From Flagellimonas profundi (GTDB lineage: Bacteria; Bacteroidota; Bacteroidia; Flavobacteriales; Flavobacteriaceae), in the NCBI RefSeq assembly GCF_017313275.1, contig NZ_JAFLNM010000001.1, positions 1,550,001 through 1,614,000 of the forward strand: a DNA stretch of 64,000 bases, in the 5' to 3' direction. Below, in pieces: positions 26,562 through 48,432 of the stretch. The translations under genes were made by a program, and so were the position numbers. The notes under the pieces are model-generated. The model was not told where the DNA came from. It made no database searches and saw nothing but the letters and a program-made list of their open reading frames with translations. The number at the start of each line of letters is the position of its first letter. Position 1 is the stretch's first letter.

Positions 26562-28820
26562 TTAAAGTTTAATTGTTTTAAGCCTCAAACTGTTCAATAC
26601 GACCGATACACTGCTAAAGGCCATAGCGGCACCAGCTATCATCGGGTCCAACAAAAATCCATTGATCGGATACAGCAGCCCTGCAGCTATAGGAATTCCA
26701 ATGATATTGTATATAAAGGCCCAAAAAAGATTTTGTCTTATACCCACAACGGTCTTATGGGAGAGCTTCAACGCTTTGGGAATGGCATTTAAATCAGAGG
26801 TGATCAAGGTCATTTTCGCGACATCCATGGCAATGTCGGACCCTTTGCCCATCGCGATACTGACATCTGCTTGGGCAAGTGCCTGCGAATCATTGATACC
26901 ATCGCCCACCATGGCGACCACCTTTCCACTTTCTTGAAGCCTTTTCACAAAATCAGCTTTCTCTGATGGGAGCACTTCGGCTTCATAGCTTTTGATACCC
27001 ACCTGTTGTGATACGGCTTCGGCGGTCATCTTGTTATCACCGGTCATCATGTAAACTTCCATACCATTCCCCTGCATTTCCCGTATGGCTTCCTTTGAGG
27101 ATTCCTTTATACTATCCATAATGGCCAAAATCGCCTTCACCTTGCCTCCACCGCCAAAGTATATGACCGTTTTGGCTTCCTGCTCTAACCCTTCGACCAT
27201 GTGCCCCAGGTTGTCATCCATGGCGATTCCTTTTTCGACCATCAACTTATGATTGCCCACAAGGTATTGGGTTCCATCCAATGCCTCAGCGCGCACACCT
27301 TTTCCTGTAATACTATTGAAGTTCAAAATTTCGACCGGATTTACCTTTCTATTTTTTAAAAAGGAGACCACGGCTTCAGCCAAGGGATGTTCGGACTGTC
27401 CTTCCATGGCATATAAAATTTGCTCCAGGGCCCTGTGATCGGTCACATGGTCCGCAAAGACCATATCGGTCACCACAGGCTTTCCTTCAGTTATGGTACC
27501 CGTTTTATCCAGGACAATGGCATTCACTTTGTAACCCAACTCCAGGCTTTCCGCATCTTTGATGAGAATATTGTGTTCGGCCCCCTTGCCTATTCCCACC
27601 ATGATGGCTGTGGGGGTTGCCAAACCCAGCGCACAGGGACAAGCTATTACCAATACGGCAACTGCGGTCAACAGTGCATGGGTAAAAGCGTCCTCACCTC
27701 CCAGGAACATCCAAGTGATAAATGTCACCAGTGAAATCGTCATTACCACGGGAACAAAAATACCGGCAATCCTGTCCACCAATTTTTGTACGGGCGCTTT
27801 GCTCCCCTGTGCTTCCTGCACCATCTTGATGATCTGGGACAAAAGGGTCTCCCCTCCCACCCGGTCAGCTACAAACTGAAAGCTTCCTTTTTGGTTTACG
27901 GTACCGGCAAAAACTTTTTCATCCTTTGTCTTTTCTACAGGGACGGGTTCGCCTGTGATCATACTTTCATCAACATAGGAACTTCCTTTGGACACCGTTC
28001 CATCCACAGGGATTTTCTCTCCCGGTCTGACCAATATCGTTTGACCTACCTTGACCGAAGAAATAGGGATTTCCCTTTCCTCCCCATCTGCTATCACCTT
28101 TAAGGTCTTGGGCTGCAACCCTATCAATTTCTTTATGGCGGAGGATGTATTTGATTTCGCCTTTTCTTCCAATAATTTCCCCAATGAAATAAAGGTGATG
28201 ATCACTGTGGCCGCCTCATAATATACATGGGGTTCCATGCCTTTACTGAGCCAAAATTCAGGAAAAAAGGTATTGAATGCACTGAACAAAAAGGCAATGC
28301 CCGTACTGAGTGCGACCAAGGTATCCATATTGGCCTTACCGAATCTGGCCTGCTTGAGGGCATTTATGAAAAAGCTTCGGCCAAACCAGAACAGGATAGG
28401 AACGGCAAGTACCAACGAAATCCACCTACCCAGGACCCAATCCATAAAAAACATCCCCAGAAGGAAAATGGGAAGTGTCAAAATAGCGGACCAAAGGGTT
28501 CGCTTTTTTATGGATACATAATGCTTTTTCGAAAGCTCTTCCTGTACTTCGGTAGGATCCTCGGCATCCACAATTATATCATAACCGATTTGACGTACCG
28601 CATTTTGAAGATCGCTTAGGTCCATAGCACTGTCATACTCCACAAGGACCGTACTGTTGGCAAAGTTGACACTGGCATTGTAGACCCCTTCGGTATGGCC
28701 CAGCATGGATTCCACGCTGGATGCACAGGCAGCACAGGTCATTCCAGTGACCGGGAAAGATTTTTTTGACACCGTCTTCGCTTTCCTTTCGGTGTCCTCA
28801 ATAATATCGATTGCATCCAT
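26562..28820 (-). CDS. copA: copper-exporting P1B-type ATPase
   Basis: A 752-residue P1B-1 ATPase. One N-terminal HMA domain with GMTCAAC (Cys29, Cys32) is followed by eight membrane segments with the ion-path motif CPC (about 394-396), the phosphorylated DKTGT (about 436), SEHP in the nucleotide domain, GDG(I)ND and the late-helix Asn/Met/Ser residues of Cu(I) pumps. It moves Cu(I) or Ag(I) from the cytosol to the periplasm. It begins the transcription order copA - HMA chaperone - small membrane frame. A separate CopB-type ATPase is at 58809-60878. Confidence 0.93.
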
Positions 28821-28966
28821 TTTCTACTCCGATTTGTATGGTACAAATTTCAGAATAGACCTAAAATGGACTGTTACGTTATTTACTGAAAGAGTTGTAG
28901 AATTTTCCGAAAAATCAACTTTTATCTTTCCTTGTCAAGTACTTAACCTTAATTGGTGAGTGGTTT

Positions 28967-29117: not shown

Positions 29118-29681
29118 TCATTCGGCCAGATTCTTTGTTTCTTCGCTAAGCGATCCCTCGAATTTAGGAATAGGCCGCTTTTCTTTTCCTGCTTCAGTTT
29201 CCACTATTCCATTTTCCTTGATGTCGTTTATCAACCACTGCATTTCCATTATCTCCCTGCGTTGTGCCTTGATAATTTCATTGGCAAGCTCCCGTACCCT
29301 GACATCTTTTATTTGAGAACGTTCACTGGTCAAAATAGCAATGGAATGATGGGGTATCATTCCTTCCATGTAGTCGACTCCTGAAACGGTAACCTGACTC
29401 CTGACCAGCCATATCCCACCTGCAATCAACAAAACACCCAAGGCTAATATTGACATGTTCTTGCGTCGGTCTTTATACATCTGTAGCATATATAGTAGCA
29501 TAATAATGATCATCGACCCCCCCATGATCAAAGTCATGAAAAATCTAGTCTCACTATACCAAAAGTGATCAATGATTTGATATGAGTGGGTGTACATTAA
29601 AAAAAACATGGCGACCATTGAAGTACCAATCATCGCAAAAAACTTTAAATAATTATTGGATTTTCTTTGACTATCTTCCAT
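29118..29681 (-). CDS. DUF305-family membrane protein
   Basis: A 187-residue protein with three predicted membrane helices (about 12-32, 45-65, 75-93) followed by a periplasmic helical DUF305 domain. Signature residues are MIPHHSIAI and the REIMEMQWLI helix, rich in His and Met, as in ferritin-like metal-binding bundles. DUF305 proteins are regularly found in copper and silver resistance clusters and probably bind metal in the periplasm. It lies between the second HMA protein and copA on the same strand. A biochemical role is not established. Confidence 0.85.
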   Translation of the reverse strand: MEDSQRKSNNYLKFFAMIGTSMVAMFFLMYTHSYQIIDHFWYSETRFFMTLIMGGSMIIIMLLYMLQMYKDRRKNMSILALGVLLIAGGIWLVRSQVTVSGVDYMEGMIPHHSIAILTSERSQIKDVRVRELANEIIKAQRREIMEMQWLINDIKENGIVETEAGKEKRPIPKFEGSLSEETKNLAE

Positions 29682-29792: not shown

Positions 29793-30017
29793 TCAATTGG
29801 CTTTGTTCATCGCTTGTATTTTATATTGACCCCCCTTATTTTCCAATGCCTTTTGTAGCTTTTCAAGGGGGACCTCAAATTGCGACTCCACTGTAGCTTC
29901 TGCGTTTTTTAGATCGACCGCTACATCGGCTACACCGGCCACATTGAAAAGAGCTTCTTCAACGTGCCCCCTACAGCCATCACAAGTCATTCCTTCTATT
30001 TGGTATCTTCTTTTCAT
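29793..30017 (-). CDS. HMA-domain metal chaperone
   Basis: The gene encodes 74 residues from the ATG at 30017, forming one heavy-metal-associated domain with GMTCDGC (Cys12, Cys15). The open frame continues upstream of the ATG, but that part is not HMA-like and probably untranslated. It resembles the C-terminal half of MerP/CopZ-like carriers and ends in a Lys-rich tail. Its distance from the other CopZ-like gene and its different sequence suggest that it serves another partner, perhaps the HMA-AraC regulator encoded just upstream. Confidence 0.85.
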   Translation of the reverse strand: MKRRYQIEGMTCDGCRGHVEEALFNVAGVADVAVDLKNAEATVESQFEVPLEKLQKALENKGGQYKIQAMNKAN

Positions 30018-30222
30018 GTTGTGATCATTTTTTATTTTAACAATTTTACACCTAGAATCAACAATGTTGGTTCCAACACGTATGGGAAAAGTAACACTTT
30101 CTGTATAAGGGCGTTGTTTGAAAAAAAACAAACCTTGACCCATTTGCGAAGAAAGGTGTTTTTTAAATTAGCGTTTAGGAGGCTGGTTCCTTGGGAAGGT
30201 ATTGCGCCCTTAATGGTAGAGG

Positions 30223-30810
30223 TTAAATATCATCAAGCGATATTCTATTTTGAATGGCACTTTTCTTAAATTGTGTAGGTGTCATTCCAGTTACTTTTTT
30301 AAATTGGTTGCTTAAATAGGCAACGCTGCTATAGTCCAATTGAAACGCTATTTCCTTTAAGCCCAATTCGTCATAAACAAGAAACTCTTTGATCTTTTCA
30401 ATCTTTTGGTTGATGATATATTGCTCCAAGGTAATGCTTTCCACCGCGGAAAACAGTGAACTAAGATACTTATAGTCAAGATGCAATCCATCGGAAAGGT
30501 ATTCGGGCCATTTGACCTTTTCCATGGGTCCGGTGTAGTGTATCGCCTCAATCACTAGGTTTTTGATCTGTTCGATCAACTGACCTTTACGATCATTGAC
30601 AATCGTAAATCCGATTTTCCCAAGTCTTTTGTTGAGACCTTCCCGTTTTTCATCCGTTATTTTTCCGCTAAGTGTTATTTCACCCAACGACACATTCATA
30701 TAGGGAATGCCCTCATCGTCCAAAATACCTTTGACGGCCATGATGCATCTCGGACAGACCATGTTTTTGATGTACAACACATCTTTCGATTTACTGGACC
30801 CAACTTCCAT
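30223..30810 (-). CDS. AraC-type regulator with N-terminal HMA-like metal-binding domain
   Basis: A 195-residue protein. Residues 10-75 resemble a degenerate HMA/ferredoxin-like fold with a MVCPRC metal site (Cys19, Cys22). Residues about 105-190 form an AraC helix-turn-helix (LKEIAFQLDYSSVAYLSNQF). The fusion gives a one-component metal sensor that could bind Cu(I), Ag(I) or Zn and activate the cluster. A clear paralogue is at 46214-46795, on the other strand at the other end of the minus-strand copper block. Known copper sensors (CueR, CopY, CsoR, CusR) have other folds, so this class is less well described. Confidence 0.8.
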   Translation of the reverse strand: MEVGSSKSKDVLYIKNMVCPRCIMAVKGILDDEGIPYMNVSLGEITLSGKITDEKREGLNKRLGKIGFTIVNDRKGQLIEQIKNLVIEAIHYTGPMEKVKWPEYLSDGLHLDYKYLSSLFSAVESITLEQYIINQKIEKIKEFLVYDELGLKEIAFQLDYSSVAYLSNQFKKVTGMTPTQFKKSAIQNRISLDDI

Positions 30811-30811
30811 A

Positions 30812-30994
30812 TCATGCAGTGAATTTCCACAGGGCCTTCAAAAAAATGACGACCACTGCCAATATAACGATCAATATCAAGGCCAATATGCCAAGGATTT
30901 TCATTCTTTTTTCCTTTCTATTCTTGGCCGGGTCCCTTTTCTTTTTCGCCAGACCCCTTTTTTTCTTTCGTCTTTGCCTCCTAAGTTCGCTCAT
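30812..30994 (-). CDS. small basic single-pass membrane protein
   Basis: 60 codons: a strongly basic N-terminal half (RRQRRKKKR... with many Lys and Arg) and one hydrophobic helix at about 32-55. An internal ATG would give a 30-residue version (MKILGILALI...). Its TGA lies two bases from the ATG of the HMA-AraC gene (TGATATG), so translation may be coupled. No family recognised; helix length and charge layout support a real membrane peptide with its N-terminus in the cytosol. Confidence 0.45.
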   Translation of the reverse strand: MSELRRQRRKKKRGLAKKKRDPAKNRKEKRMKILGILALILIVILAVVVIFLKALWKFTA

Positions 30995-35148: not shown

Positions 35149-37608
35149 TTAAAAACGGGCTAGCAGGCCTCCGCCCCAACCATATCGGTTGTTGTAGTTG
35201 GCCTGGATTGAAAAATTACGTGAAAGGATATAGGAGGCCCCTACCAGCCATTGGGTCTCACTTTCATAGGATGAATTCCCCAAATCGTTGACCCATCCAA
35301 AATCGGCCCGAAATTCATATTCCCCCTCGAGGAAAATCCTTGGAAAAAGCAATAGTTCCCTATCCAACCTTATTCTTGGACGCAGCTGGTGGTCCATACT
35401 CACATCCATATTAAAGCGGTATGGGGTAAAATACTTGACCCCTATCAGTCCCACTGTATTGAAGCGGTCATAGGAATCAGGGATGGAGGTTTCCGTGTTC
35501 ACCCCTGCATAGACCCGTACCCAGTCATTGAGATATCTGTTATAATTGAATTCCACCTCGGCATTTTGGTCGTAGTCAAATTCTGCCCGTACCCCAAATT
35601 CATTCCTGATATTACTTGAAACAAGGAAGAGTTCATTAAAATTGGAACCCAATCTGGCAGCACCCCAAGCATAATAATGGTCAGTTTCATCTACCAACTT
35701 TTGAACAGGAAAATCCTTCATCCTCACATCCCTTGGGGTATCATAACTGAAAACCCTGGCCATGCCCCCCATCATGTGATAGAGGATATGACAGTGGAAA
35801 AACCAATCCCCGTACTCTTCATTATAAAATTCGATGACCACTTTCTGCATGGGCGGCACATTGACCGTATGTTTCAAGGGTGACTTTTCACCATTCTCAT
35901 TGATGACCCTGAAATAATGCCCATGGAGGTGCATCGGATGGTGCATCATGGTCAGGTTGTTGAGGGTGATCCGGGTTACTTCCCCACCTTTGATCTTGAT
36001 CTTATCGGTTTCTGAAAGTGGCACACCGTTCATACTCCAGATATACCGTTGCATATTTCCCGTCAGGTTCAACAGAATGTCATTGACGGGCAGATCGGCA
36101 TTATAGGTAGTACTTTCCTTTGCTTTTAAGAAATCATAGTTGAAATACGTTTTACGGGTATCGTAATCAAAAGCTGAAGTGTCTTTCTGCATCATTGGCA
36201 TAGTCTGAACCATAGGGTCTTCCATCTTATCCTTATGTCCGGTGGATTTCATTGACGTTGAATCCTTTTCCATTCCTGCCATATCCCCCATCTTTTTATC
36301 CATCTCCATGTGCCTATGATCTTCATTCGCATTCATAGGCCTTTTATCATCCATCTTCGCAATGGGTTTATCCTTTTGACCGCTCATTTCGGTCTTATCC
36401 ATCGACATCCCATTGTGCATACCCATATCCATGCTGCCATCCTTCATGTCCATCTGCATCCCATACTTTTGCATCAAATATTCGGGTGTATTTTTCTTCT
36501 TGTTGCCGGCCATTGCCGGAGCTCCCATTTTCATGTCCATTTGGGCCATTTGTTTCATCATCGCCACTTTGTCGGGCCTATCGATGGTCGTTGCGGGAAA
36601 AAGCGTTCCCTGCCCTAAATGCAACGAGGTATGCCCGGAGCCGTCCTGTGCCGTGGCGGTTACCTCCAAAGTGCCTTCAGGAACGGTCACGATGACATCA
36701 TAGGTCTCGGCAATGCCAAAAAGAAAACGACTTTTGGAAACAGGCTCCACATCGACACCATCCCCGGAAACCACCATGGGGTTACCGCCACCGAAATCCA
36801 TCCAATAATAGGTGGAGGCAGAGGCATTGACGAACCGGAGCCGCACTTTTTCCCCTGGTTTGAAATCAGGGTATTCGGCCAATGTTTTCCCATTGGTCAA
36901 AAATGCGGGGTAGTAGATATCCGCAATATCCGCTCCCTCCATACGATCTCGCCAAAATTTGAGCTGTGCACCTAGTGCACCTTCCTTAATGACCCTGCTC
37001 AAGGGCACCGCGGTCCCTTTTTTGACCTGGTACCACTCGTTTCCCCGTTTAAGGTTTCGGAGCACGTTCATGGCCTTTTCGTTCGTCCAATCGGAAAGCA
37101 CCACGACCAAATCCTTATCGTAGTCCAACGTCTTTTCCTTGGGATGGATCAATATCGAGCCATACACCCCCTTTTGCTCTTGTAGCATGGTGTGGGAATG
37201 GTACCAATAGGTACCTGATTGGTTGATCGGAATCCGATATTGGAAAGTTGTGCCAGGTTCTATGGGCGGTGTGGTCAAATAGGGAACCCCGTCATAAAAA
37301 TTGGGCAAGATCAATCCATGCCAGTGTACGGAGGTTTCCACATCCATCTTATTGGTCACGTTGATCAGGGCGAGGTCACCCTCGTTGAATTCCAAGACCG
37401 GTCCCGGAATACTCCCATTGATGGTCATTGCATCGGCAGTGACCCCACCGAGGGTCAATTTGTTCTGTTCCAGTACAAGATTGTATTCCCGAACGGGTCT
37501 ACCTTCCTCTTTTCTGTCCTCACCATTTGTCCCCACTTGCCCAAAAACATGGGTCGTCAAGGCAGTTAGGACAAAAAACAAGATTTTAGATTTCAATATT
37601 TTCATCAT
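35149..37608 (-). CDS. multicopper oxidase fused to a CopB-like outer-membrane barrel
   Basis: 819 residues: signal peptide (1-24, ending in VFGQ), cupredoxin domains with the copper ligands HWHG (95-98), HSH (137-139), HHPMHLHGH (about 554-562) and HCH plus axial Met (about 604-613), and a Met/His-rich insert (about 345-475) like that of CopA and CueO. The last 180 residues no longer look like an oxidase. They are amphipathic strands (YYAWGAARLG..., LLFPRIFLEGEYEFRAD, final aromatic GGGLLARF) like CopB/PcoB barrels. It would oxidise Cu(I) to Cu(II) at the outer membrane. A fusion of CopA and CopB functions is the best reading. Confidence 0.85.
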   Translation of the reverse strand: MMKILKSKILFFVLTALTTHVFGQVGTNGEDRKEEGRPVREYNLVLEQNKLTLGGVTADAMTINGSIPGPVLEFNEGDLALINVTNKMDVETSVHWHGLILPNFYDGVPYLTTPPIEPGTTFQYRIPINQSGTYWYHSHTMLQEQKGVYGSILIHPKEKTLDYDKDLVVVLSDWTNEKAMNVLRNLKRGNEWYQVKKGTAVPLSRVIKEGALGAQLKFWRDRMEGADIADIYYPAFLTNGKTLAEYPDFKPGEKVRLRFVNASASTYYWMDFGGGNPMVVSGDGVDVEPVSKSRFLFGIAETYDVIVTVPEGTLEVTATAQDGSGHTSLHLGQGTLFPATTIDRPDKVAMMKQMAQMDMKMGAPAMAGNKKKNTPEYLMQKYGMQMDMKDGSMDMGMHNGMSMDKTEMSGQKDKPIAKMDDKRPMNANEDHRHMEMDKKMGDMAGMEKDSTSMKSTGHKDKMEDPMVQTMPMMQKDTSAFDYDTRKTYFNYDFLKAKESTTYNADLPVNDILLNLTGNMQRYIWSMNGVPLSETDKIKIKGGEVTRITLNNLTMMHHPMHLHGHYFRVINENGEKSPLKHTVNVPPMQKVVIEFYNEEYGDWFFHCHILYHMMGGMARVFSYDTPRDVRMKDFPVQKLVDETDHYYAWGAARLGSNFNELFLVSSNIRNEFGVRAEFDYDQNAEVEFNYNRYLNDWVRVYAGVNTETSIPDSYDRFNTVGLIGVKYFTPYRFNMDVSMDHQLRPRIRLDRELLLFPRIFLEGEYEFRADFGWVNDLGNSSYESETQWLVGASYILSRNFSIQANYNNRYGWGGGLLARF

Positions 37609-37630: not shown

Positions 37631-39472
37631 TTACATTTCATCGGTGATTTCACCGCAGGTCAACATAGCCTCTCCGAAATAGGGGTTTTTGATCTCTTTG
37701 GTCGTACTCAACCAATAGGCACCTTTGTTGTTATCGGCCATCGGGCAAAACTGTTCGTATATCTTTTGATCCACCCCAAAAAGCTTGATACCATTGGATA
37801 AATGGGCGGACAGCTGTTTAAAATGGTTGCGTTGCACCTTGACATCCGATATCTTTGAAATGGAATTCGCCGAACTGGAGATTTCCTTCGATATCGTCAT
37901 CCAATGGCCGTGCGCCTTCTTGTCCGTCAATTGTTTCATATCCACATGTTCCAAGGCCGACAATACTTTTTTTGCAGCGGCATTTGCCTTGGTACCATTA
38001 TCATTGACAAGGGCATCCTTTAACTCCAAGTAGGCGCTCAACACCTGTTTCAATTGGTTTTTAAAAGTCGCTGTCGCCGTCATTCGCTGGTCCATGTCGG
38101 AATGGTCCGTTTTACTTTCCTGTTTGACATCGCCCATATCCATATCCGAATGATCGCTACCGCCTGTACCCTTGTCATCCCCCATCTTCATTCCTCCGTG
38201 GTTATGTCCCGTCATGGCGGGCCCACCTTCAGGATTCATCATGCTCGGTTTCCCGGCCAATTGGGCCGCCGCGTCGATACTAAAGGTCCCATTTACCGCG
38301 ATCTCATCCCCTTCCTGCAGCCCCTCCTTCACAATGAACCCATTTCCCAACGATGGTCCCAAGGTGACATCGCGCAACACAAAATTCACCCCATTGGATG
38401 TGGTATTCTTGATGTATACCACAGAACGTTCCCCGGTCCACATCACTGCCGACTTAGGAATGGTTATCGCTTCTGATGCAATGGGCTGTTTTGCTTTCAC
38501 GGTTCCGGAAGCGAACATTTCCGGCTTTAACCTTAAACCGGCGTTCCCGATCTCGATTCTGGCCTTGGCAACCCTAGTCATGGGATTGATTACCGGGTCG
38601 ATATAGGAAATCCTGCCTTTGAAATTTTCGCCCGGGAGGGAGGGTATGGTAAAGACCACTTCGTCGCCTTTCCTTACCCAGGGCATGTCGGACTCATAAA
38701 TATCGAACAATACCCAAACGCTGTTCAGGTTGGCAATTTGATATAATGCCTTGCCCTTGTTGACATAGTCGCCAAGGTTTACCATTTTTTCGGTAACGTA
38801 GCCTGAAACATCGGCATGTATCGGCAATTCCTCCTTAACGGTCCCGGATTGAAGTATCTGTGCGATTTGGTTGTCGGAAAGCTTCCAGTTTTTTAATTTT
38901 TCCTTGGCGGCATTAAAAAACTGCGGTTGGGTGTCCGCCACCTTTCTTGCTTCAAAAAGTTCCTCTTGTGCAGTGACCAGGTCAGGGGAATAAATATAGG
39001 CGATGATCTGCCCCTGCTTGATGTACTCCCCTGTAAAATTGACCATTAGCCGTTCCACCCTCCCGGGAATATGGGAAGATTGGGAATAGATCGATCGTTC
39101 ATCCGCTTCCACCTTGCCATTAAGATCGATCAATTTGACCGGGGCGGTCTTGCCCACGATTTCCGTAGAGACATTGGCAAGCTGCATGGCCGTTTTCGAC
39201 ATGTTTACGGCCATAGGGTCCAGTTCCGAACCGTTATCACTTTCCAAAGGGATCAAGTCCATCCCACAAATGGGACAATCTCCCGGTTCCGGCTGTCTGA
39301 TCTGCGGATGCATCGAGCAGGTCCAAGTGGTTTCTTCCGATACTTCCGAAGCATGTTGGTGTTCCTCCGTGGCATTGCCCTTCGAGCCTCCGAACAATAG
39401 CCAACCCAGCAAAAGTCCAAGAACCAGGGTGGACAAGGCTATTTTTACTATTTTTTGTGTTTCTGATTTCAT
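37631..39472 (-). CDS. cusB: CusB-type RND periplasmic adaptor with DUF3347 tail
   Basis: A 613-residue membrane-fusion protein: N-terminal anchor (about 9-27), a heavy-metal-binding CSMHPQI...CPICGMDL module (about 50-75), the lipoyl/hairpin/beta-barrel adaptor core (about 100-420), a Met/His/Asp-rich linker (GHNHGGMKMGDDKG and following), and a C-terminal DUF3347 domain (about 470-610) with FCPM and MLTCG. It links the inner-membrane CusA to the outer-membrane channel and may collect metal from the DUF3347 lipoprotein. The fusion of three metal-binding elements in one adaptor is notable. Confidence 0.9.
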   Translation of the reverse strand: MKSETQKIVKIALSTLVLGLLLGWLLFGGSKGNATEEHQHASEVSEETTWTCSMHPQIRQPEPGDCPICGMDLIPLESDNGSELDPMAVNMSKTAMQLANVSTEIVGKTAPVKLIDLNGKVEADERSIYSQSSHIPGRVERLMVNFTGEYIKQGQIIAYIYSPDLVTAQEELFEARKVADTQPQFFNAAKEKLKNWKLSDNQIAQILQSGTVKEELPIHADVSGYVTEKMVNLGDYVNKGKALYQIANLNSVWVLFDIYESDMPWVRKGDEVVFTIPSLPGENFKGRISYIDPVINPMTRVAKARIEIGNAGLRLKPEMFASGTVKAKQPIASEAITIPKSAVMWTGERSVVYIKNTTSNGVNFVLRDVTLGPSLGNGFIVKEGLQEGDEIAVNGTFSIDAAAQLAGKPSMMNPEGGPAMTGHNHGGMKMGDDKGTGGSDHSDMDMGDVKQESKTDHSDMDQRMTATATFKNQLKQVLSAYLELKDALVNDNGTKANAAAKKVLSALEHVDMKQLTDKKAHGHWMTISKEISSSANSISKISDVKVQRNHFKQLSAHLSNGIKLFGVDQKIYEQFCPMADNNKGAYWLSTTKEIKNPYFGEAMLTCGEITDEM

Positions 39473-39476
39473 CTTA

Positions 39477-40700
39477 TTATTTTTTTGCCGTGATATAGTT
39501 AAACTTGGCCAACGCTATTTCATACTGCGTCAATGCGCTTATTTTCAATTTAGTATACTTCAACAACTGTTGCTGCATTCGCAACACCTCCTCGAAGTCC
39601 TTCCCGGAATTCCCATAGGCTGTGAACAACAGATTGAGTGCTTGTTCCGATTCCATGATCTGCTCATCAAAGAGGGAAATCAAATCCGTCTGCTGCCTTA
39701 TGTCAAAAACGGCCATTTCATAATTGGTCTTCAATGTATTGGTGACTTCCTTTTTTTGCAGTGCATAACTTTCCTGCATCAATTGGGCCTCCTTTTCGGC
39801 TGCCCTGTACTTACCCCTGAATAGGGGCAGGCTCAAGGTAAGCATGGGCATCAATACATCCTTGCCGTTATCGGGAACCACCATGTCCGTTCGCTCATCG
39901 ACCATTACATAGTCCAGTCCGATCCCGACTTTTGGCAAGCCTTGTTTAAGGGCTGCCCTTTCAGAGGCCTCTGCTGCCTTGACCTTTAATTCCAGGGAAT
40001 TCAAGAGCGGATGGTCCACCACCAAGGAATCTTTTGTGTAATCAATGGGCAGTACATTGGCCCCAAAGGTCTCAGGGATGTTTATTTGTTCATCTTCCTT
40101 ACGGTCCAATAATTTATTGAAGGACGCCAGAAGGGGGATTTCCTTATGTTTAAGGATACCCAGATTCGTCCGGGCTTCCTTTAAAAGCACGTCCACCCTT
40201 AAGACATCGACCAATGATCCCAGGCCGTTTTTAAATTTCGTATTGGAAACCGTCCTGTAGGATTCCAGGATGGCGATGTTGTCCTCTTCGATCCGTACCC
40301 ACTCCTTAAGTTCGTACAATGGGAAATAAGCTGCTGAAACCTCGTAATAAAGTTTGTTCCTGGCATCCAAAAAAGACTGGTACTTGGCCTCTGCCATAAG
40401 TGCAGTGGCATCACCTTGGGCCTTTAAGGTTCCAAACCAAGGAAACATCTGAGTCAGTGAAAACCTTGCCTTTTGGGGCCCTACCCGGGTTTCGACCGGG
40501 GAGATGAAGTACCCAAAGGACAGGTTTGGATCTGGTAAAGCCTTCACCTGCGGTACTTTTTGTAACGCCGCCTCAAAATCTTTGTACTGTGAAAGCAACC
40601 CTGGATTGTTCTCAGCCGCTACCTTAAAGTAATCCTCCAAGGTCTGGCCGTTGGAAAGGATACTTGTCAAGACAAATATGATGGTCAATACATTTTTCAT
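39477..40700 (-). CDS. cusC: TolC-family outer membrane channel (CusC-like)
   Basis: A 407-residue protein with a signal peptide (1-18) and the two long helical-hairpin repeats of outer-membrane factors (about 25-205 and 215-405). The opening DYFKVAAENNPGL and the PDPNLSFGYF segment match the metal-efflux branch. It should form the exit duct of the CusABC pump. Its ATG follows the cusA stop by one base (TAAAATG) and its stop is 4 bases before the cusB ATG, so the order is cusA-cusC-cusB. Confidence 0.88.
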   Translation of the reverse strand: MKNVLTIIFVLTSILSNGQTLEDYFKVAAENNPGLLSQYKDFEAALQKVPQVKALPDPNLSFGYFISPVETRVGPQKARFSLTQMFPWFGTLKAQGDATALMAEAKYQSFLDARNKLYYEVSAAYFPLYELKEWVRIEEDNIAILESYRTVSNTKFKNGLGSLVDVLRVDVLLKEARTNLGILKHKEIPLLASFNKLLDRKEDEQINIPETFGANVLPIDYTKDSLVVDHPLLNSLELKVKAAEASERAALKQGLPKVGIGLDYVMVDERTDMVVPDNGKDVLMPMLTLSLPLFRGKYRAAEKEAQLMQESYALQKKEVTNTLKTNYEMAVFDIRQQTDLISLFDEQIMESEQALNLLFTAYGNSGKDFEEVLRMQQQLLKYTKLKISALTQYEIALAKFNYITAKK

Positions 40701-40701
40701 T

Positions 40702-43700
40702 TTACTGTATTTTTTTCAATGCTTTGTTGCGATTTATAATGACTGTTTCCCTCCAATAGGCTTGGAGTACCGGGACCACGAACATGGTCATGATCTGAAT
40801 GGCCATTCCCCCAAAAGTCGGGATGGCCATGGGAATCATAATGTCGGCCCCTTTTCCGGTCGAGGTCAGCACGGGCAAAAGGGCGATGATGGCCACGGCG
40901 GCCGTCATCATGGCGGGACGGACCCTCTTTTTCCCTGCCTCCAAAACCGCCGCTCTTACATCCGGTACGGTTTGAGGGTTCTTTTCCTCAAAAACCTGGT
41001 GGATGTACGTACCCATGATGACACCATCATCTGTGGCAATACCGAAAAGTGCGATAAAACCAACCCAAACCGCAACGCTTAAATTGATCGTGTGCATTTG
41101 GAACAGATCTCGCATGTTGACCCCTGAAATGGCAAAATTCATGAACCAATCCTGACCATAGAGCCAGAGCATTATGAAACCTCCCGCAAAAGCAACAAAA
41201 ACCCCGGAAAAATGGATGGAGGAAGCGATGACCGTCTTGAACTGAAAAAACAGCAGCAAGAAAATAACGATCAAACTGATCGGTATGACAATGGACAGTC
41301 TTTTCACTGCCCGGATTTGGTTCTCATAACTCCCTGAAAACTTATAGCTTATTCCGGCGGGGACCGTTAATTCACCTGCATTGATTTTTTTCTGGATGGC
41401 TTCCTGGGCATCGTTCACCACATCGACTTCCGCAAAACCGTCCCGTTTATCAAAAAGCACATAGCCTACCAAAAAGGTGTTTTCGCTCTTGATGGCCTGA
41501 GGCCCGCGGACATATTCAAAATCCACCACTTGGGATAAGGGAATTTGCGCCCCTACCGGTGTGGGAATCAAAATTTTCTTCAACGATTCCGGGTCGTCCC
41601 TTAATTCCCTCGGGTAGCGCACCCGCACGGGAAAACGTTCCCTACCCTCAACGGTGGAGGTGATTTTCATCCCACCGATCGCTGTTTCAATGCTTTGCTG
41701 CACATCTTCAATGTTCAAACCATATCGGGATATCCCGTCCCTGTTGATATTGAGGTGCAAATAAGGTTTGCCCACTATTCTATCGGCGAATACGGCTTCT
41801 GCCTTGACCGAGGGCACTTCCTTCAAGATACCTTCCAATTGCATCCCAAAATCCTCGATGGTCTTCAGATCGGGACCAAAAACCTTGATCCCCATGGGAG
41901 CGCGCATTCCGGTCTGCAACATCACCAACCGGGTTTCTATGGGCTGTAATTTGGGAGCAGAGGTTATACCCGGGATTTTGGTGACCTTTACGATCTCGTC
42001 CCAGATATCATTGGGCGATTTGATATGGGGTCGCCAGTTTCGGTAAAACTCACCGTCCTCATCCACGATCAGGTCCTTCTCGGCAATCCCTTGCCGTAAG
42101 GCCTCCTCATTGGTCAAAGTGTCCTTATCCTGGGTAATGAACCTATCTTTCCGATCCACTTTAAAACGGATCCTATGCCCCTCTTCATTCACAATGAATT
42201 CAGATTTATAGTTGATGATGTTCTCATACATGGAGATGGGTGCAGGATCCAGTGCGGATTCAACGCGACCGAGTTTACCGACAACCAAGTCCACTTCGGG
42301 TATGCTTCCCAAGAGCATATCCAACTGTCCAACCACCCTTTTGTTGTATTCCACCCCAGAATGCGGCATCGATGTCGGCATCAACAGGAACGATCCTTCA
42401 TTGAGCGATGGCATAAACTCAGATCCTATTCCCGGGAATCTCTTGGAAGCTGCCTGCCATCCCGAGGTCTGTCGGACACTTTTCCAACCTACCGATTCAA
42501 AACCTTTGGCCACGATTCCAAAGGTGCTATCGAACCCCAGCCAAACCAATACCCCAAAAAACAGGGTCACGAATGGGATGAGCATGAACTTTCCCTTGTT
42601 TTCCAGACACCACTTTAGGACCGGGGTATAGAAATGTACGATTCCCATCAAAGCGGCCAGGATAATGCCCACTAGGAACAACACAAAAAAGTAGTTGACC
42701 ACAATACCGTTTTGGGGTCCCAAGGGCATCCATTCCTCGGTCAGGAAGAAGGAAGCGATAAAAACGGTCAGTCCCAAATTGATATAGTTGGGAAACGATT
42801 TATAGTGCTCCGGCCATTTGGGTTCCATCAAATTGTTCAACCCAATGAGTGAAATGACCAATGGCAACCACATCTGGGCATAGAATGCAAAGATAAGCCC
42901 GGTGGATATCAATAGAATGGACCAAAACCGTCGCACCCGTTTCTTGTCATAATCCACCCCCATTACAAAATGGGCCAATGCCGGAAGCACAACGATTCCC
43001 AGCACAAAGGCGCTCAACAGGGCAAAGGTCTTGGTAAAGGCCAAGGGCCTAAATAGCTTCCCTTCTGCCGATTGCATGGCAAAGACAGGCACAAAGCTCA
43101 CGACGGTGGTCGCCAATGCGGTCGTAATTGCCGAGGCCACTTCCACGGTGGCCTTATATATTACCTGAATGAGTTCCTTGCCCTTGGCACCATGGTTCTC
43201 GGGCATTTCCAAATGACGGATAATGTTCTCGACGAACACGATCCCCACGTCCACCATCACCCCTATGGCAATTGCTATCCCGGAAAGGGCCACCACATTG
43301 GCATCTACCCCGGCATATTGCATGACAATAAAGGTCATTAGCACCCCGACAGGCAATAGACTGGATATGATCACAGAGGCTCTCAGGTTGAGCACAAGTA
43401 CCAGTACAACGATGATGCTGATCAGTATTTCGTGGGACAGGGCATTTTCCAAAGTACCTATGGTCTCGTGGATGAGCTGTGTCCGGTCATAAAACGGGAC
43501 CACGGTCAATTGGCTTTCCACACCATTGGCCAAGGTCTTTTTGGGCAAGCCGGGTGCGATTTCCTTGATCTTGTCCTTCACATTATTGATGACCGCCAAG
43601 GGATTGGAACCATAACGGGCGACCACGACGCCACCTACCACTTCGGCGCCCCCTTTATCGAGCACGCCCCTTCGTGTGGCCGGTCCCAAGCTGACCACCC

Positions 43701-44538
43701 CAATATCCTTGACCCGAACCGGGACATTGTCAAAGACGGCAACCACGGCCTTTTCTATGTCTTCCGTATTTTTGACATATCCCAAGCCCCTGACCAAATA
43801 TTCTGCTTGATTGACTTCAATGGTCTTGGCGCCCACATCCCTGTTCGACTTCCGTACGGCCTCCATGACCTTGTATAAAGGAATATTATAGGCTTTCAGG
43901 GCATCTGGATTTACATCCACTTGATATTCTTGGACGAAACCACCGATCGAAGCCACTTCGGACACCCCGTCCACGGCATTCAACCCGTATTTCACATAAA
44001 AATCCTGGGCAGTCCGTATCTCGTGCAGATCCCATCCTCCCGTAGGGTTGCCATCCTTGTCCCTTCCTTCCAGGGTATACCAATATACCTGTCCCAATGC
44101 CGTGGCGTCAGGACCCAAAGTCGGGGTTACCCCATCGGGCAACAGCCCTGCGGGAAGTGAATTCAATTTTTCAAGGATCCGGGAGCGCGACCAATAAAAT
44201 TCCACATCATCATTAAAAATGATATAGATACTGGAAAATCCAAAGATGGATGAACTACGGATCGTTTTCACCCCTGGAATTCCCAGTAAATAGGTCGTCA
44301 TTGGATAAGAAATCTGATCCTCGATATCTTGTGGCGATCGCCCGGGCCATTGCGTGAAAACAATTTGCTGGTTTTCCCCAATATCGGGAATGGCATCCAC
44401 GGGCACCGGGTCTTTTGGGAGAAAGCCCGTATTCCAATTGAAGGGGGAAGTGACAATCCCCCAGGTAACCAACGTTATTAAAACGAGAACGGTCACCAGT
44501 TTGTTTTCTAAAAAGTATTTTATGATTTTATTAAGCAT
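40702..44538 (-). CDS. cusA: CusA/CzcA-family heavy-metal RND transporter
   Basis: A 1278-residue inner-membrane pump, about 200 residues longer than E. coli CusA. The N-terminus (VPVDAIPDIGENQQIVFTQW quoted in part), the TM4 region with GVMVDVGIVFVEN, and the C-terminal AVWVGFIALFGIATDDGV are heavy-metal-efflux hallmarks. TGMRAPMGIKV contains the Met region that binds Cu(I)/Ag(I) in CusA. The extra length comes mainly from added hydrophobic segments near residues 530-640 and a polar insertion near 800-850. Related long forms occur in other Bacteroidota. It exports Cu(I) or Ag(I) with CusB and CusC. Confidence 0.92.
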   Translation of the reverse strand: MLNKIIKYFLENKLVTVLVLITLVTWGIVTSPFNWNTGFLPKDPVPVDAIPDIGENQQIVFTQWPGRSPQDIEDQISYPMTTYLLGIPGVKTIRSSSIFGFSSIYIIFNDDVEFYWSRSRILEKLNSLPAGLLPDGVTPTLGPDATALGQVYWYTLEGRDKDGNPTGGWDLHEIRTAQDFYVKYGLNAVDGVSEVASIGGFVQEYQVDVNPDALKAYNIPLYKVMEAVRKSNRDVGAKTIEVNQAEYLVRGLGYVKNTEDIEKAVVAVFDNVPVRVKDIGVVSLGPATRRGVLDKGGAEVVGGVVVARYGSNPLAVINNVKDKIKEIAPGLPKKTLANGVESQLTVVPFYDRTQLIHETIGTLENALSHEILISIIVVLVLVLNLRASVIISSLLPVGVLMTFIVMQYAGVDANVVALSGIAIAIGVMVDVGIVFVENIIRHLEMPENHGAKGKELIQVIYKATVEVASAITTALATTVVSFVPVFAMQSAEGKLFRPLAFTKTFALLSAFVLGIVVLPALAHFVMGVDYDKKRVRRFWSILLISTGLIFAFYAQMWLPLVISLIGLNNLMEPKWPEHYKSFPNYINLGLTVFIASFFLTEEWMPLGPQNGIVVNYFFVLFLVGIILAALMGIVHFYTPVLKWCLENKGKFMLIPFVTLFFGVLVWLGFDSTFGIVAKGFESVGWKSVRQTSGWQAASKRFPGIGSEFMPSLNEGSFLLMPTSMPHSGVEYNKRVVGQLDMLLGSIPEVDLVVGKLGRVESALDPAPISMYENIINYKSEFIVNEEGHRIRFKVDRKDRFITQDKDTLTNEEALRQGIAEKDLIVDEDGEFYRNWRPHIKSPNDIWDEIVKVTKIPGITSAPKLQPIETRLVMLQTGMRAPMGIKVFGPDLKTIEDFGMQLEGILKEVPSVKAEAVFADRIVGKPYLHLNINRDGISRYGLNIEDVQQSIETAIGGMKITSTVEGRERFPVRVRYPRELRDDPESLKKILIPTPVGAQIPLSQVVDFEYVRGPQAIKSENTFLVGYVLFDKRDGFAEVDVVNDAQEAIQKKINAGELTVPAGISYKFSGSYENQIRAVKRLSIVIPISLIVIFLLLFFQFKTVIASSIHFSGVFVAFAGGFIMLWLYGQDWFMNFAISGVNMRDLFQMHTINLSVAVWVGFIALFGIATDDGVIMGTYIHQVFEEKNPQTVPDVRAAVLEAGKKRVRPAMMTAAVAIIALLPVLTSTGKGADIMIPMAIPTFGGMAIQIMTMFVVPVLQAYWRETVIINRNKALKKIQ

Positions 44539-44642: not shown

Positions 44643-45059
44643 TTAAATAAGGAAAGTTTGATCAAGAATCTGAATATCCTTGACCAAAAGGGGCGGAGGG
44701 TAATGTACGACAGAAACTATATTTTCCTGTAATCCCTCAAAAAGATTGATGTAACTGTAGGTGAAGGCAACCAGGAACTGATGCTCCCCAACACTTAAAT
44801 TTTCAACGGAAAGCAATAGATCCCCATTTCCTTGTACGGAAAGCGTTTCGTCATCGCAACACTGTTTTTTCTGCAGCTTGTGCTGGTGTGAATCCGATGG
44901 CTGCTGCACATCCATTCCACAGGATTCCGCTTTACCGAAGAAGGAAAAATCAACAAGATCTTCCCCACAATAGTGTTGTGCCACCGCAAAGGAAAAGGTG
45001 GATGCCAGCACGTTGAGTGCCATAAAACAAGATAATATTTTGAACCAAAATATTCTCAT
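44643..45059 (-). CDS. HYC_CC_PP family protein, copy 1
   Basis: A 138-residue exported protein with signal peptide (1-27), an HYC motif (QHYCGED, about 29-35), a central CC (KKQCCDDE, about 69-76) and a terminal PP segment (HYPPPLLVKDI). These three marks define the HYC_CC_PP family of Bacteroidota, whose function is unknown. Four cysteines and several His could bind soft metals in the periplasm. It is upstream of cusA on the same strand, and its paralogue lies divergently at 45622. Confidence 0.85.
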   Translation of the reverse strand: MRIFWFKILSCFMALNVLASTFSFAVAQHYCGEDLVDFSFFGKAESCGMDVQQPSDSHQHKLQKKQCCDDETLSVQGNGDLLLSVENLSVGEHQFLVAFTYSYINLFEGLQENIVSVVHYPPPLLVKDIQILDQTFLI

Positions 45060-46213: not shown

Positions 46214-46795
46214 ATGGATTCCAAAAGGGAATACTGGATAAAGCATATGGTCTGTAGGCGATGCCTAAAGGTCATAAAGCAAGAATTGTATGACCTGGGC
46301 ATTGAGGTTCTATCCCTTGAACTGGGGAAACTTACGGTAAATGCCCCGGAAATAGGGATTTCCGAAGTTGACCAAAAAGTCGTGGACGTCCTACATTCCA
46401 ACGGCTTTGAAATAGCCAAAAGCGAAGAGGAAATGATCGTTGAGAAAATCAAGATTGGCTTGATTTCGTTGGTTGCGGACATCCCTGTCGAAAATAAAGG
46501 GAACACTTCGGATTACCTGGCCAATTTACTACATCGGGATTACAAGGTACTGAGCAAGATTTTTTCCAGAAATGAAAACATCACTATCGAAAAGTATTTT
46601 ATCAAGCTCAAGCTCGAAAAAGTAAAGGAGCTCATCCAACTGGGACAATATACATTTTCCGATATCGCCTATATGCTCGATTACAGCAGCGTCAACCATT
46701 TGTCCGCACAGTTCAAGGAAATTATGGGGATGAGCATGACGGATTACAAAAACGGACAAATGTGGCAAAGGGATTTTCTTGACGAAATAATATAA
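46214..46795 (+). CDS. AraC-type regulator with N-terminal HMA-like metal-binding domain, paralogue
   Basis: A 193-residue protein with the same two-part structure as the regulator at 30223-30810: an HMA-like N-terminal part with MVCRRC (Cys14, Cys17) and a C-terminal AraC helix-turn-helix (SDIAYMLDYSSVNHLSAQF). The Pro of the CPRC site is replaced by Arg, which may alter metal choice. It lies at the head of the plus-strand block, 76 bases before the cytochrome gene, so it may drive the plus-strand genes while its paralogue serves the minus-strand ones. Confidence 0.8.
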   Translation: MDSKREYWIKHMVCRRCLKVIKQELYDLGIEVLSLELGKLTVNAPEIGISEVDQKVVDVLHSNGFEIAKSEEEMIVEKIKIGLISLVADIPVENKGNTSDYLANLLHRDYKVLSKIFSRNENITIEKYFIKLKLEKVKELIQLGQYTFSDIAYMLDYSSVNHLSAQFKEIMGMSMTDYKNGQMWQRDFLDEII

Positions 46796-46870
46796 ATATC
46801 CAGGAATATTATGAAGATGGCCTGTCAGGTCAAACAGTAGTTTTAACGCAACAACCTAACAAATAATAAA

Positions 46871-47278
46871 ATGAAACTTACACAAAAAAAATCAATACCC
46901 ATAATGCTAACATTCCTAATGACCCTTTTGGCCCTACAGGCGACCAGAGCACAGACCCAATGGGAAGCACCGGCCAGTGCGGACAATTTGAACAATCCCT
47001 TAAAAAATGATGCCACGGCGACAGAAAGCGGCAAACGGACCTTCAGAATGCTCTGTGTGATCTGCCACGGGGCCAAGGGTAAGGGAGACGGCATGGGCGG
47101 AGCCGGATTGACCCCTAAACCCACCGACTTGACCAGTGCCAAGGTACAGTCCCAATCGGACGGTGCCCTATTCTGGAAATTGACCAACGGTAAGCCCCCT
47201 ATGGCTTCCTATGAAACCGCACTTCCCGAAAACAAGAGATGGGAATTGATCAACTATATCAGAACCTTGAAAAAATGA
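46871..47278 (+). CDS. monoheme c-type cytochrome
   Basis: A 135-residue protein with a signal peptide (1-28, ending in RAQ) and a single cytochrome c domain. The heme site is CVICH (Cys62, Cys65, His66), and the distal ligand is probably the Met in KPPMASYE. It is soluble and periplasmic. The stop overlaps the porin start by four bases (ATGA). The arrangement cytochrome - porin - cytochrome lipoprotein suggests electron transfer or an adaptation of the outer membrane to metal stress. Confidence 0.88.
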   Translation: MKLTQKKSIPIMLTFLMTLLALQATRAQTQWEAPASADNLNNPLKNDATATESGKRTFRMLCVICHGAKGKGDGMGGAGLTPKPTDLTSAKVQSQSDGALFWKLTNGKPPMASYETALPENKRWELINYIRTLKK

Positions 47279-48432
47279 AAAAACTACTAATGACCCTAAT
47301 TATCTTAGGGTTGGGATCTTCGGCTTTGGCCCAGACCTACAACACCTTTGAACCCAGTAAGACGCAGTTCATGCTGCGTGGTTACGGACACACCGGATTT
47401 GAATATTTGGATACCGGTGGTGAACAAGAATCCACCTTTTTAGGGGCCACTTTCGCCCCTATATTCCTCTACAAGCATTCCGACAAGCTCATGTTCGAGG
47501 CCGAACTGGAGTTTGAGCTTGAAGGAAATGAATTGAAAACGGGACTGGAATATGCCGATGTGATGTATGTACTCAACAAGCATATGACCGTAAGGGCCGG
47601 TAAATTCCTGCTTCCCTTCGGAACCTTTATGGAGCGTTTGCACCCTGCATGGATCAACCGACTTCCAAGCAGACCCCTTGGATTTGGTCACGACGGAATT
47701 GCACCGGCCTCCGATATCGGCGTCGAACTCAGGGGGGCATTCGATCTGGGCGGTCCCAAAATGAACTATGCGGTTTATGTGACCAACGGTCCGCGCATCA
47801 AGGATGGAAGTGAGGAGCCTGAAGAAGCGGGTATGCTGGATTTCGGTTATTATGAAGATGTGAACCTGGCCAAGGCCTTGGGTGGCAGGATCGGCCTACT
47901 CCCGCTCTCGGATTCATCCATGGAATGGGGGATTTCCGCCTATACCACCAACAGTACCGGCGCAGAGGACTCCGATTACAAGGATGTGGGTGCCTTTCTT
48001 TGGGCGCTGGATCTTTCCTATGTAAAATCGATCACCCCCTTACAAGGGGTTGTGGACATCAAGGCCCAGTACAACAGTTCCAATGTGGATACCGCCACCT
48101 ACTATGAAATCGAAGATGGGATTTCCGAACCTTACTCCTTTGACAACCAAAGCAGCTCCTTTTATACACAATTGAGCTATCGCCCCATCATGTCGGGAAG
48201 CGACTTTATAAAGCAACTCGAATTTGTGGGTCGATATTCCGATTTCAACGCCCCTGAAGGAGCGGAGTGGGAAGAGAAGTCAACGCAGTACGCTTTTGGT
48301 TTGAACTATTGGCTGAGTTGGCGTTCCGTGGTCAAACTCAGCTATCAAACCACCAAGATGGAAGGTGGTCATGACAGTGATGGCACGACCCGAACCAATG
48401 GATTGTTTGTGCATTGGGCCATTGGATTTTAA
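47275..48432 (+). CDS. outer-membrane porin-like beta-barrel protein
   Basis: 385 residues from the ATG at 47275. A signal peptide (1-19, ending in ALAQ) is followed by amphipathic strands with aromatic girdles, a strand-rich body (MTVRAGKFLLPFGTFMERLHP) and a final strand ending in IGF, as in phosphate-selective-porin-like (OprP/OprO) or DUF-type barrels of Bacteroidota. It has no plug domain, so it is not TonB-dependent. The tight junction with the cytochrome gene argues for a shared complex, perhaps metal ion or electron passage. The substrate is unknown. Confidence 0.82.
   Translation: MKKLLMTLIILGLGSSALAQTYNTFEPSKTQFMLRGYGHTGFEYLDTGGEQESTFLGATFAPIFLYKHSDKLMFEAELEFELEGNELKTGLEYADVMYVLNKHMTVRAGKFLLPFGTFMERLHPAWINRLPSRPLGFGHDGIAPASDIGVELRGAFDLGGPKMNYAVYVTNGPRIKDGSEEPEEAGMLDFGYYEDVNLAKALGGRIGLLPLSDSSMEWGISAYTTNSTGAEDSDYKDVGAFLWALDLSYVKSITPLQGVVDIKAQYNSSNVDTATYYEIEDGISEPYSFDNQSSSFYTQLSYRPIMSGSDFIKQLEFVGRYSDFNAPEGAEWEEKSTQYAFGLNYWLSWRSVVKLSYQTTKMEGGHDSDGTTRTNGLFVHWAIGF

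Follow-up and report, generated by a model that had tools for sequence, protein, structure and literature searches.

Which signal is sensed by a protein that joins an HMA-like ferredoxin domain to an AraC-type DNA-binding domain, and which genes does it control? The question is raised by a regulator encoded among copper genes in the 64-kb stretch of Flagellimonas profundi DNA analyzed here, referred to below as the window. The relevant features, all on the minus strand except the last, are as follows.

30223..30810, minus strand: HMA-AraC regulator, 195 aa (exact ORF, translation)
30595..30786, minus strand: HMA-like ferredoxin fold, aa 9-72 of the regulator, putative sensor domain (AlphaFold model, hhalign, structural neighbours)
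30745..30756, minus strand: CPRC, aa 19-22, putative Cu(I) ligands (translation and alignment)
30262..30495, minus strand: AraC-type helix-turn-helix domain, aa 106-183 (Pfam HTH_18, E 5.5e-15)
30812..30994, minus strand: small basic single-TM protein of 60 aa (MSELRRQRR...), directly upstream of the regulator (ORF)
29793..30017, minus strand: small CopZ-like HMA copper chaperone (HMA E 3.8e-15 on the longer ORF 29793-30143)
29118..29681, minus strand: DUF305 membrane protein with weak similarity to CopM-type chaperones, 42 bits vs a cut-off of 90 (Pfam/NCBIfam)
26562..28820, minus strand: copA, Cu(I)-type P1B ATPase with an HMA domain, predicted target (Pfam/NCBIfam)
35149..37608, minus strand: multicopper oxidase in the same block as the regulator (neighbourhood annotation)
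37631..44538, minus strand: CusB-like (HlyD, HMBD and DUF3347), CusC-like OEP and CusA-like RND genes, same block (neighbourhood annotation)
46214..46795, plus strand: second, divergent HMA-AraC member, 38% identical (family search)

The block begins with the CusA-, CusC- and CusB-like genes, the multicopper oxidase, an amino-acid permease, and DUF3347 and haem-binding proteins, and continues with DUF4440, PepSY, the 60-aa membrane protein, the regulator, the CopZ-like protein, DUF305 and copA. The first-pass annotation had described a minus-strand copper block with an HMA chaperone beside the regulator, and this description holds: the chaperone (30017-29793) is accompanied by CopA, the multicopper oxidase, and the CusB/C/A-like genes. 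In 15 of the 16 Flagellimonas-group loci compared (L038-L052), DNA identity to the window block is 97-99.6% over the sequence available, and in L053 it is 92-93%. The stretch at 26.2-36.8 kb of the window is ~98% identical over up to 9.6 kb across many Flagellimonas/Allomuricauda genomes, with four block copies in F. pelagia, and the block seems to have spread recently among these genomes. The small single-TM protein (30812-30994) has no Pfam family over the cut-off; counting copies, similar basic ORFs of 49-74 aa, often starting with MSEnRRnRRK..., occur at 75 of the 195 family rows. On the plus strand at 46214-48432, the second family member, with the motif CRRC, is followed by a cytochrome c gene and a porin-like gene (Pfam match just under the cut-off), and the same three-gene set recurs in this genome at L221 with 82, 72 and 79% identity; a matrix scan of the window found no strong operator-type site at the 46214-48432 locus.

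The presence of both domains in a single protein, noticed at first pass, was confirmed by the exact ORF, the Pfam helix-turn-helix match, hhalign, and the structural model. The AraC-type DNA-binding domain is certain: the regulator exceeds the curated Pfam scores for HTH_18 (55.9 bits vs 33.6) and HTH_AraC (42 vs 26.6), and the VIA-align neighbours of this part of the model are the AraC domains 6swi, 3lsg and 1bl0 (Z 12.7-13.9), which share its two-HTH helical fold. The N-terminal part carries KNMVCPRC at aa 15-22, within YIKNMVCPRC, and M17, V18, C19, R21 and C22 are invariant in 67 aligned proteins, 65 of which were fetched by peptide patterns. The Pfam search gave no row for HMA (PF00403) at E<=0.1, the gathering score not being reached, and the 20 NCBIfam rows all concern other AraC-type regulators and fall far under their cut-offs; thus the HMA-AraC architecture is named by neither library. 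Phmmer against PDB returned AraC domains together with a weak row to the HMA domain of CopA (3fry, E 0.11). By hhalign, a profile built from residues 1-75 of the 146 members with CxxC matches HMA domains with 97.5% probability and both cysteines in register, the HMA set having been taken from the same loci and chosen by its motif. The AlphaFold model, for which 67 proteins from the window and the named loci were aligned (mean pLDDT 88.7), has the order E-H-E-E-H-E (beta-alpha-beta-beta-alpha-beta) at aa 10-71, a helix at 74-92, and then the AraC domain, so that alignment and model together give a ferredoxin-like fold with CxxC in loop 1. Its VIA-align neighbours include HAH1, CopZ and TM0320 (Z 7.0-7.3) and ACT domains (Z 7.8); since ACT domains fit as well as HMA domains and a Z below 8 possibly reflects a common arrangement, structure alone leaves the HMA kinship unproven. 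In a Foldseek search with the model, the top HMA chaperone has rank 42 (E 0.098). Profile and model nevertheless point to a real HMA-like domain in the N-terminal half, too diverged for detection by Pfam. The regulator also differs, as had been claimed, from CueR, CsoR and CusRS: the Pfam/NCBIfam searches gave no MerR row, the Pfam search gave no PF02583 row at E<=0.1, and a receiver or histidine-kinase domain is absent, HTH_18 and HTH_AraC being the only Pfam rows.

The regulator is not a singleton but, judging from sequence searches, belongs to a large and apparently undescribed family in Bacteroidota. This genome alone encodes seven full-length members (100, 76, 52, 40, 38, 38 and 36% identity), and a match at E<=1e-12, counting CxxC and non-CxxC members, was found in 142 of 296 genomes of an even Bacteroidota sample. 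Contigs of named genomes contain at least 507 encoding loci among at least 596 pattern matches, from which 80 named loci, mostly named Flavobacteriaceae, were kept among the matches listed. Plasmids contribute 30 matching records out of 72,556; the ten plasmid genus names tallied are presumably all Bacteroidota (three are confirmed by taxonomy lines), most of the 25 rows listed among the 30 are annotated as 'AraC family transcriptional regulator' or 'helix-turn-helix ...', and the three plasmid loci inspected all lie among copper or metal genes. Of the 98 members in the phylum sample, 83 keep the CxxC motif, beyond chance, as do 146 of the 166 non-identical rows of the tree, from which one row without the strict motif was left out; a broader count of 163/178 adds the 80 named loci, all CxxC, which were fetched by peptide patterns, one of them spanning the motif. 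The 15 focal members without CxxC (L143, L147, L149, L153, L157, L161, L166-L169, L174, L184, L196, L198 and L200) mostly read KYMVSxRC, with the first cysteine lost; a further family member lies close to several of them.

The genomic context of the family was analyzed with one hit per genome in 100 genomes and up to 6 kb on each side, the hits being drawn from the matches listed and hence leaning to the better ones; two loci, L199 and L201, in which tblastn finds the regulator but ORF calling gave none, were left out. Single-linkage clustering of the neighbours merged HMA-bearing genes and was not used. A P-type ATPase with both DKTG and CPC occurs near 56 of the 98 sampled loci (among the matches listed), another P-type ATPase near seven, and 47 CPC ATPase genes lie on the same strand less than 1 kb downstream of the regulator. 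The remaining 42 loci, without a CPC ATPase nearby, count against a copper-sensor reading. The association follows the cysteines: a CPC ATPase is near 56/83 CxxC members vs 0/15 others (Fisher 5e-7), and among tree rows near 88/146 with CxxC vs 0/20 without, while any copper marker accompanies 129/146 vs 3/20 rows. These cases are not independent events, as the cysteine state changes four times on the tree, two of the changes being forced by starred branches. Loss of the cysteines was accordingly rejected as an independent test of linkage, because the two independent pairs on starred branches allow no valid sign test.

The same data bear on the idea that the N-terminal domain binds no metal and is of an ACT-like or protein-contact ferredoxin type, its link to copper being an inherited neighbourhood only. 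The equally good fit of ACT and HMA domains (Z 7.8 vs 7.3) and the existence of sister members without CxxC speak in its favour, but the profile match to HMA with cysteines in register, the retention of CxxC in 83/98 sampled members, and the lack of CPC ATPases near the other 15 make it highly improbable.

The gap between the regulator and the next gene on the same strand measures 60-150 bp in 110 of 173 cases, and we learned a motif by expectation-maximisation from 108 non-redundant gaps with coding bases excluded. Motifs obtained with coding bases included were discarded, as they represent coding sequence, namely GMTCxGC codons from HMA genes further downstream and an MSENRR start. The resulting repeat has a log-likelihood of 515.6 vs 75.4 for shuffled gaps, for which fewer random starts were used (width 26, fraction 0.66). 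In its wider form, AAATTnTRYAAM-N9-AAATTnTRTAAC, it consists of two 12-bp direct half-sites with a 21-bp period, i.e., about two helix turns. The half-sites of AraC itself are also ~21 bp apart, and a repeat of this period is as expected for AraC-type proteins. When the matrix was trained on one half of the gaps, 29/54 and 25/54 gaps of the other half exceeded the 99th percentile of the controls (AUC 0.785 and 0.796); the controls were 326 intergenic regions, four of which pass by construction. Fifteen of 65 regions upstream of homologues of window-block genes also exceed this percentile. Sites scoring >15 are present in 59 of the 108 gaps and absent from 49. We consider this direct repeat a newly found, probable operator of the HMA-AraC family. 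Autoregulation as a general rule was rejected, with a site upstream of the regulator in only 1 of 40 cases, yet the paralogue L228 has a one-mismatch site.

The repeat usually lies ~50 bp before the start codon and ~20 bp before a -7 box. Downstream of the site, three positions stand out in 57-60 sequences, of which 90% have A at +22, 97% have T at +25, and 95% have T at +26, and TAnnTTTG, which we take to be the Bacteroidota -7 box, has with up to one mismatch 44 matches at offsets 20-21 vs 31 at all other offsets (adjacent offsets may both match in one sequence), all nine exact matches being at 21. With this spacing, the proximal half-site would fall on -33, as is the case for class II activators; the -33 sequence in these promoters is mostly like GTAAC, not TTTG. 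The same geometry could serve a copper-released repressor, in which the apo-protein sits on the repeat over -33 and is removed by Cu(I): a protein bound there could block the polymerase, and the known copper sensors CsoR and CopY are repressors. We hold this to be quite unlikely, since AraC-family proteins with a proximal site beside the core promoter are mostly activators, and GTAAC-like rather than TTTG sequences at -33 are, going by the consensus, what activator-dependent promoters have.

In the window, the operator search identified one site, together with its presumed promoter element.

28873..28905, minus strand: putative operator AAATTCTACAAC-TCTTTCAGT-AAATAACGTAAC, two 12-bp direct half-sites with a 21-bp period (matrix and pattern scans)
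28844..28851, minus strand: putative -7 box GAAATTTG, one mismatch to the presumed consensus TAnnTTTG, 21 bp after the operator (offset scan)

This putative operator, 52 bp before the copA ATG (28820), is the only strong site in the 64-kb window, with a score of 30.0 vs 8.0 for the next, and vs a mean maximum of 9.8 and a largest value of 19.8 in 30 shuffled windows. The window copA promoter was outside the training set, which included the promoters of its relatives L056 and L087. A consensus search with two mismatches gave three window matches, a chance number, of which only 28873-28905 is exact. The gap between the window regulator and copZ has no site (score -5.6). A common dyad had been suggested upstream of 30017, 45059 and 46871; there the learned direct-repeat matrix gave nothing strong, and the suggestion gives way to the single site before copA. 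In the copA promoters of the diverged loci L053, L054 and L056, and in that of this genome's second copy, the site and the -7 region can be aligned, the flanks only poorly. Exact sites also precede small HFCGG/HYCGG proteins at L256 and L258, which by eye resemble the HYC_CC_PP protein at 44643-45059; the latter has no strong site of its own in the matrix scan of the window.

Genome-wide, the exact pattern AATNNTRYAA-N11-AATNNYRYAA has three matches in 4,001,012 bases vs one for the reversed pattern, and all three lie 53-56 bp before CopA-type ATPases. Allowing one mismatch gives 20 matches in all, the reversed pattern giving 10. Of the 17 additional matches, five precede, at distances of 46-74 bp, two HMA-like proteins of 73 aa (one of them slightly below the Pfam cut-off), a DUF326 protein, a family member (L228), and an HMA-bearing ATPase, DUF326 being presumably a domain of copper storage proteins; seven of the other 12 overlap long ORFs. 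This composition of the predicted regulon bears on the alternative that the cysteines sense redox or thiol stress, Hg(II), Zn(II) or Cd(II), copper being one target among several. HMA-fold CxxC motifs are known to bind several soft metals, 17/146 CxxC rows lack a copper marker within 6 kb, and one plasmid member precedes a transporter annotated as Cu/Zn. On the other side, CPC is present in the linked ATPases, each of the three exact sites in this genome precedes a CopA-type ATPase, and DUF326 and multicopper genes are nearby, so that we regard a signal other than copper as unlikely.

The repeat was also sought at copA loci apart from the regulator. We compared 27 sampled genomes that have a focal CxxC regulator without a CPC ATPase in its region (set 1; 26 with CopA matches) with 30 genomes without the regulator, from which family f17 was deliberately left out (set 2; 26 with CopA matches). 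Sites scoring >15 were found at 8/30 copA loci of set 1, not adjacent to the focal regulator, vs 0/27 CPC-ATPase loci of set 2 (Fisher 0.005), although part of this difference may be due to composition, as the higher G+C of set 2 (52.0% in loci without the regulator vs 43.5% in set 1) lowers the chance of an AT-rich site. None of the 27 set 2 loci scores even 10; seven of the set 1 sites are 47-53 bp and one is 84 bp before the first ATG; and random 500-bp pieces contain a site in 2/300 (set 1) vs 0/300 (set 2) cases. By coordinates, three of the eight site-bearing loci (L280, L289 and L298) are within 1 kb of another family member, and three are further away from any family member among the matches listed (L276, ~10 kb; L272, 16 kb; L273, 32 kb). 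Neither of the last two, L275 (on another contig, score only 16.9) and L293 (on the contig at a distance of 2 Mb, score only 16.4), is beside a family member among the matches listed. Counts of the exact vs reversed pattern are 263 vs 19 in the 17 genomes of genus g2, 176 vs 63 in 125 other genomes with the family, and 53 vs 25 in 154 without it; we rejected these counts as proof of co-occurrence, the separation being too weak outside g2.

The central proposal of the first-pass annotation, a one-component copper sensor built of HMA and AraC domains, is well supported by the conserved CxxC, the linkage to copA, the conserved direct repeat in copA promoters, and the lack of a site at the 27 CPC-ATPase loci of regulator-less genomes, which are richer in G+C. 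The fusion of an HMA-like to an AraC domain and a likely DNA switch before copper-export genes make a copper sensor probable, and we propose with some confidence that the regulator is a one-component Cu(I)/Ag(I) sensor and transcriptional activator of copper efflux via copA, a proposal that rests on comparative sequence data.

The distribution of the repeat is wider in g2 (perhaps Flavobacterium), where at the G218 and G170 loci L332-L351 the same 21-bp direct repeat precedes general-stress-type genes, identified by Pfam as ferritin (ferritin/Dps-like), CsbD, DUF892, DUF2383, DUF4142 and lipocalin, and by eye as alcohol dehydrogenase and alpha/beta hydrolase. The repeat is thus probably common to related proteins. 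Members with SxxC (KYMVSxRC) were considered as rulers of these sites but found no support, because eight g2 genomes with at least 15 sites (G021, G025, G154, G170, G174, G206, G222 and G289) have only CxxC among the matches listed for a pattern that fits both types. A third type of family member without CxxC, with LFIKFD... and similar sequences replacing LYIKNMVCxRC, was observed at L374-L387 and L389 (g2) and at L388 (G226). It is present in 15 of the 17 g2 genomes with a median of 18 sites, two of the 15 having six and seven; the two g2 genomes without it have six and 10 sites. These figures are suggestive only, and make the metal-blind LFIKFD-type member a candidate regulator of the g2 stress-type genes.

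Occurrence of the same repeat before many stress-type genes in g2, together with its absence from 49 of the 108 regulator-linked gaps, also leaves room for a different AraC-type regulator that binds the repeat, with the HMA-AraC protein acting elsewhere. We find this very unlikely, because the repeat was found in gaps adjoining the HMA-AraC family, precedes one of its members (L228), and is absent from the 27 CPC-ATPase loci of family-less genomes.

For the preferred reading, a copper-responsive activator, we envisage the following mechanism. The N-terminal HMA-like domain would bind cytosolic Cu(I) via the two cysteines of MVCxRC, possibly with copper handed over by the CopZ-like chaperone. 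Two regulator molecules would then occupy the 21-bp-period direct repeat, a site defined by sequence, and the proximal half-site, ~20 bp before the -7 box, would replace the -33 element, so that copA is presumably switched on. The metal may either stabilise the dimer, e.g., by Cu(I) shared between two CxxC motifs, or free the DNA-binding domain. Sharing of Cu(I) between two CxxC motifs occurs in the crystals of copper-HAH1.

As to other copper sensors in Bacteroidota, CueR (TIGR02044) is over its cut-off in none of the 296 sampled genomes, and CsoR-domain proteins occur mostly in one family that lacks HMA-AraC. Weaker CueR matches are present in 178 genomes (best 138 bits vs a cut-off of 147). 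CsoR-domain proteins were found in 86/296 genomes, 64 of them in family f17, which has no HMA-AraC match in this sample. Both proteins are encoded in 10 genomes, among the 296 sampled, HMA-AraC only in 132, CsoR only in 76, and neither in 78, but the split follows clades, and the Fisher value of 1e-16 is therefore too strong; the window's genome encodes the two together. It is tentatively conceivable, though we would not favour it, that much of Bacteroidota relies on HMA-AraC as its main cytosolic copper sensor in place of CueR and CsoR, and that duplicates that lost the ligands kept the DNA site and took over the general-stress regulon of g2. Among the titles and abstract openings found by searching open-access literature, a body mostly without subscription journals and preprints, none concerns an HMA-AraC copper regulator, and what is new here is the combination of AraC-type DNA binding with an HMA-type sensor, the proteins themselves being already public under generic names. 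If our reading is true, a ligand, operator and targets can be assigned to a family listed as 'AraC family transcriptional regulator', whose metal-blind sisters offer a natural test of the rewiring of a sensor domain. The direct repeat could serve to predict copper regulons in Bacteroidota, and the HMA-AraC protein could serve as a template for copper biosensors.

Compared with known systems, the regulator has in common with the AraC/XylS activators (AraC, MelR and YesN-type C-terminal domains) the two-HTH domain and the repeat of 21-bp period, but it has no cupin-type sensor domain, the sensor being an HMA-like domain of ~70 aa. YbtA, one of the AraC regulators of siderophore loci that are reportedly linked to copper (PMC8725597), likewise acts in a copper response, but belongs to a siderophore system and is not known to have an HMA domain. 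With CopZ, Atx1/HAH1 and the HMA domain of CopA (PF00403), the N-terminal domain shares the fold, M-x-C-x-x-C in the same loop, and profile similarity; unlike these chaperones and N-domains, it lies below Pfam detection and is fused to a DNA-binding domain. CueR, CsoR, CopY and CusRS are known to do the job at copper-export promoters that is predicted for HMA-AraC, but with unrelated DNA-binding folds or a two-component design. Archaeal CopT/CopR, in which an HTH is fused to a TRASH metal domain, likewise join in one component an HTH and a small Cys-rich copper domain, and differ from HMA-AraC in the HTH class, the metal domain, and the domain of life.
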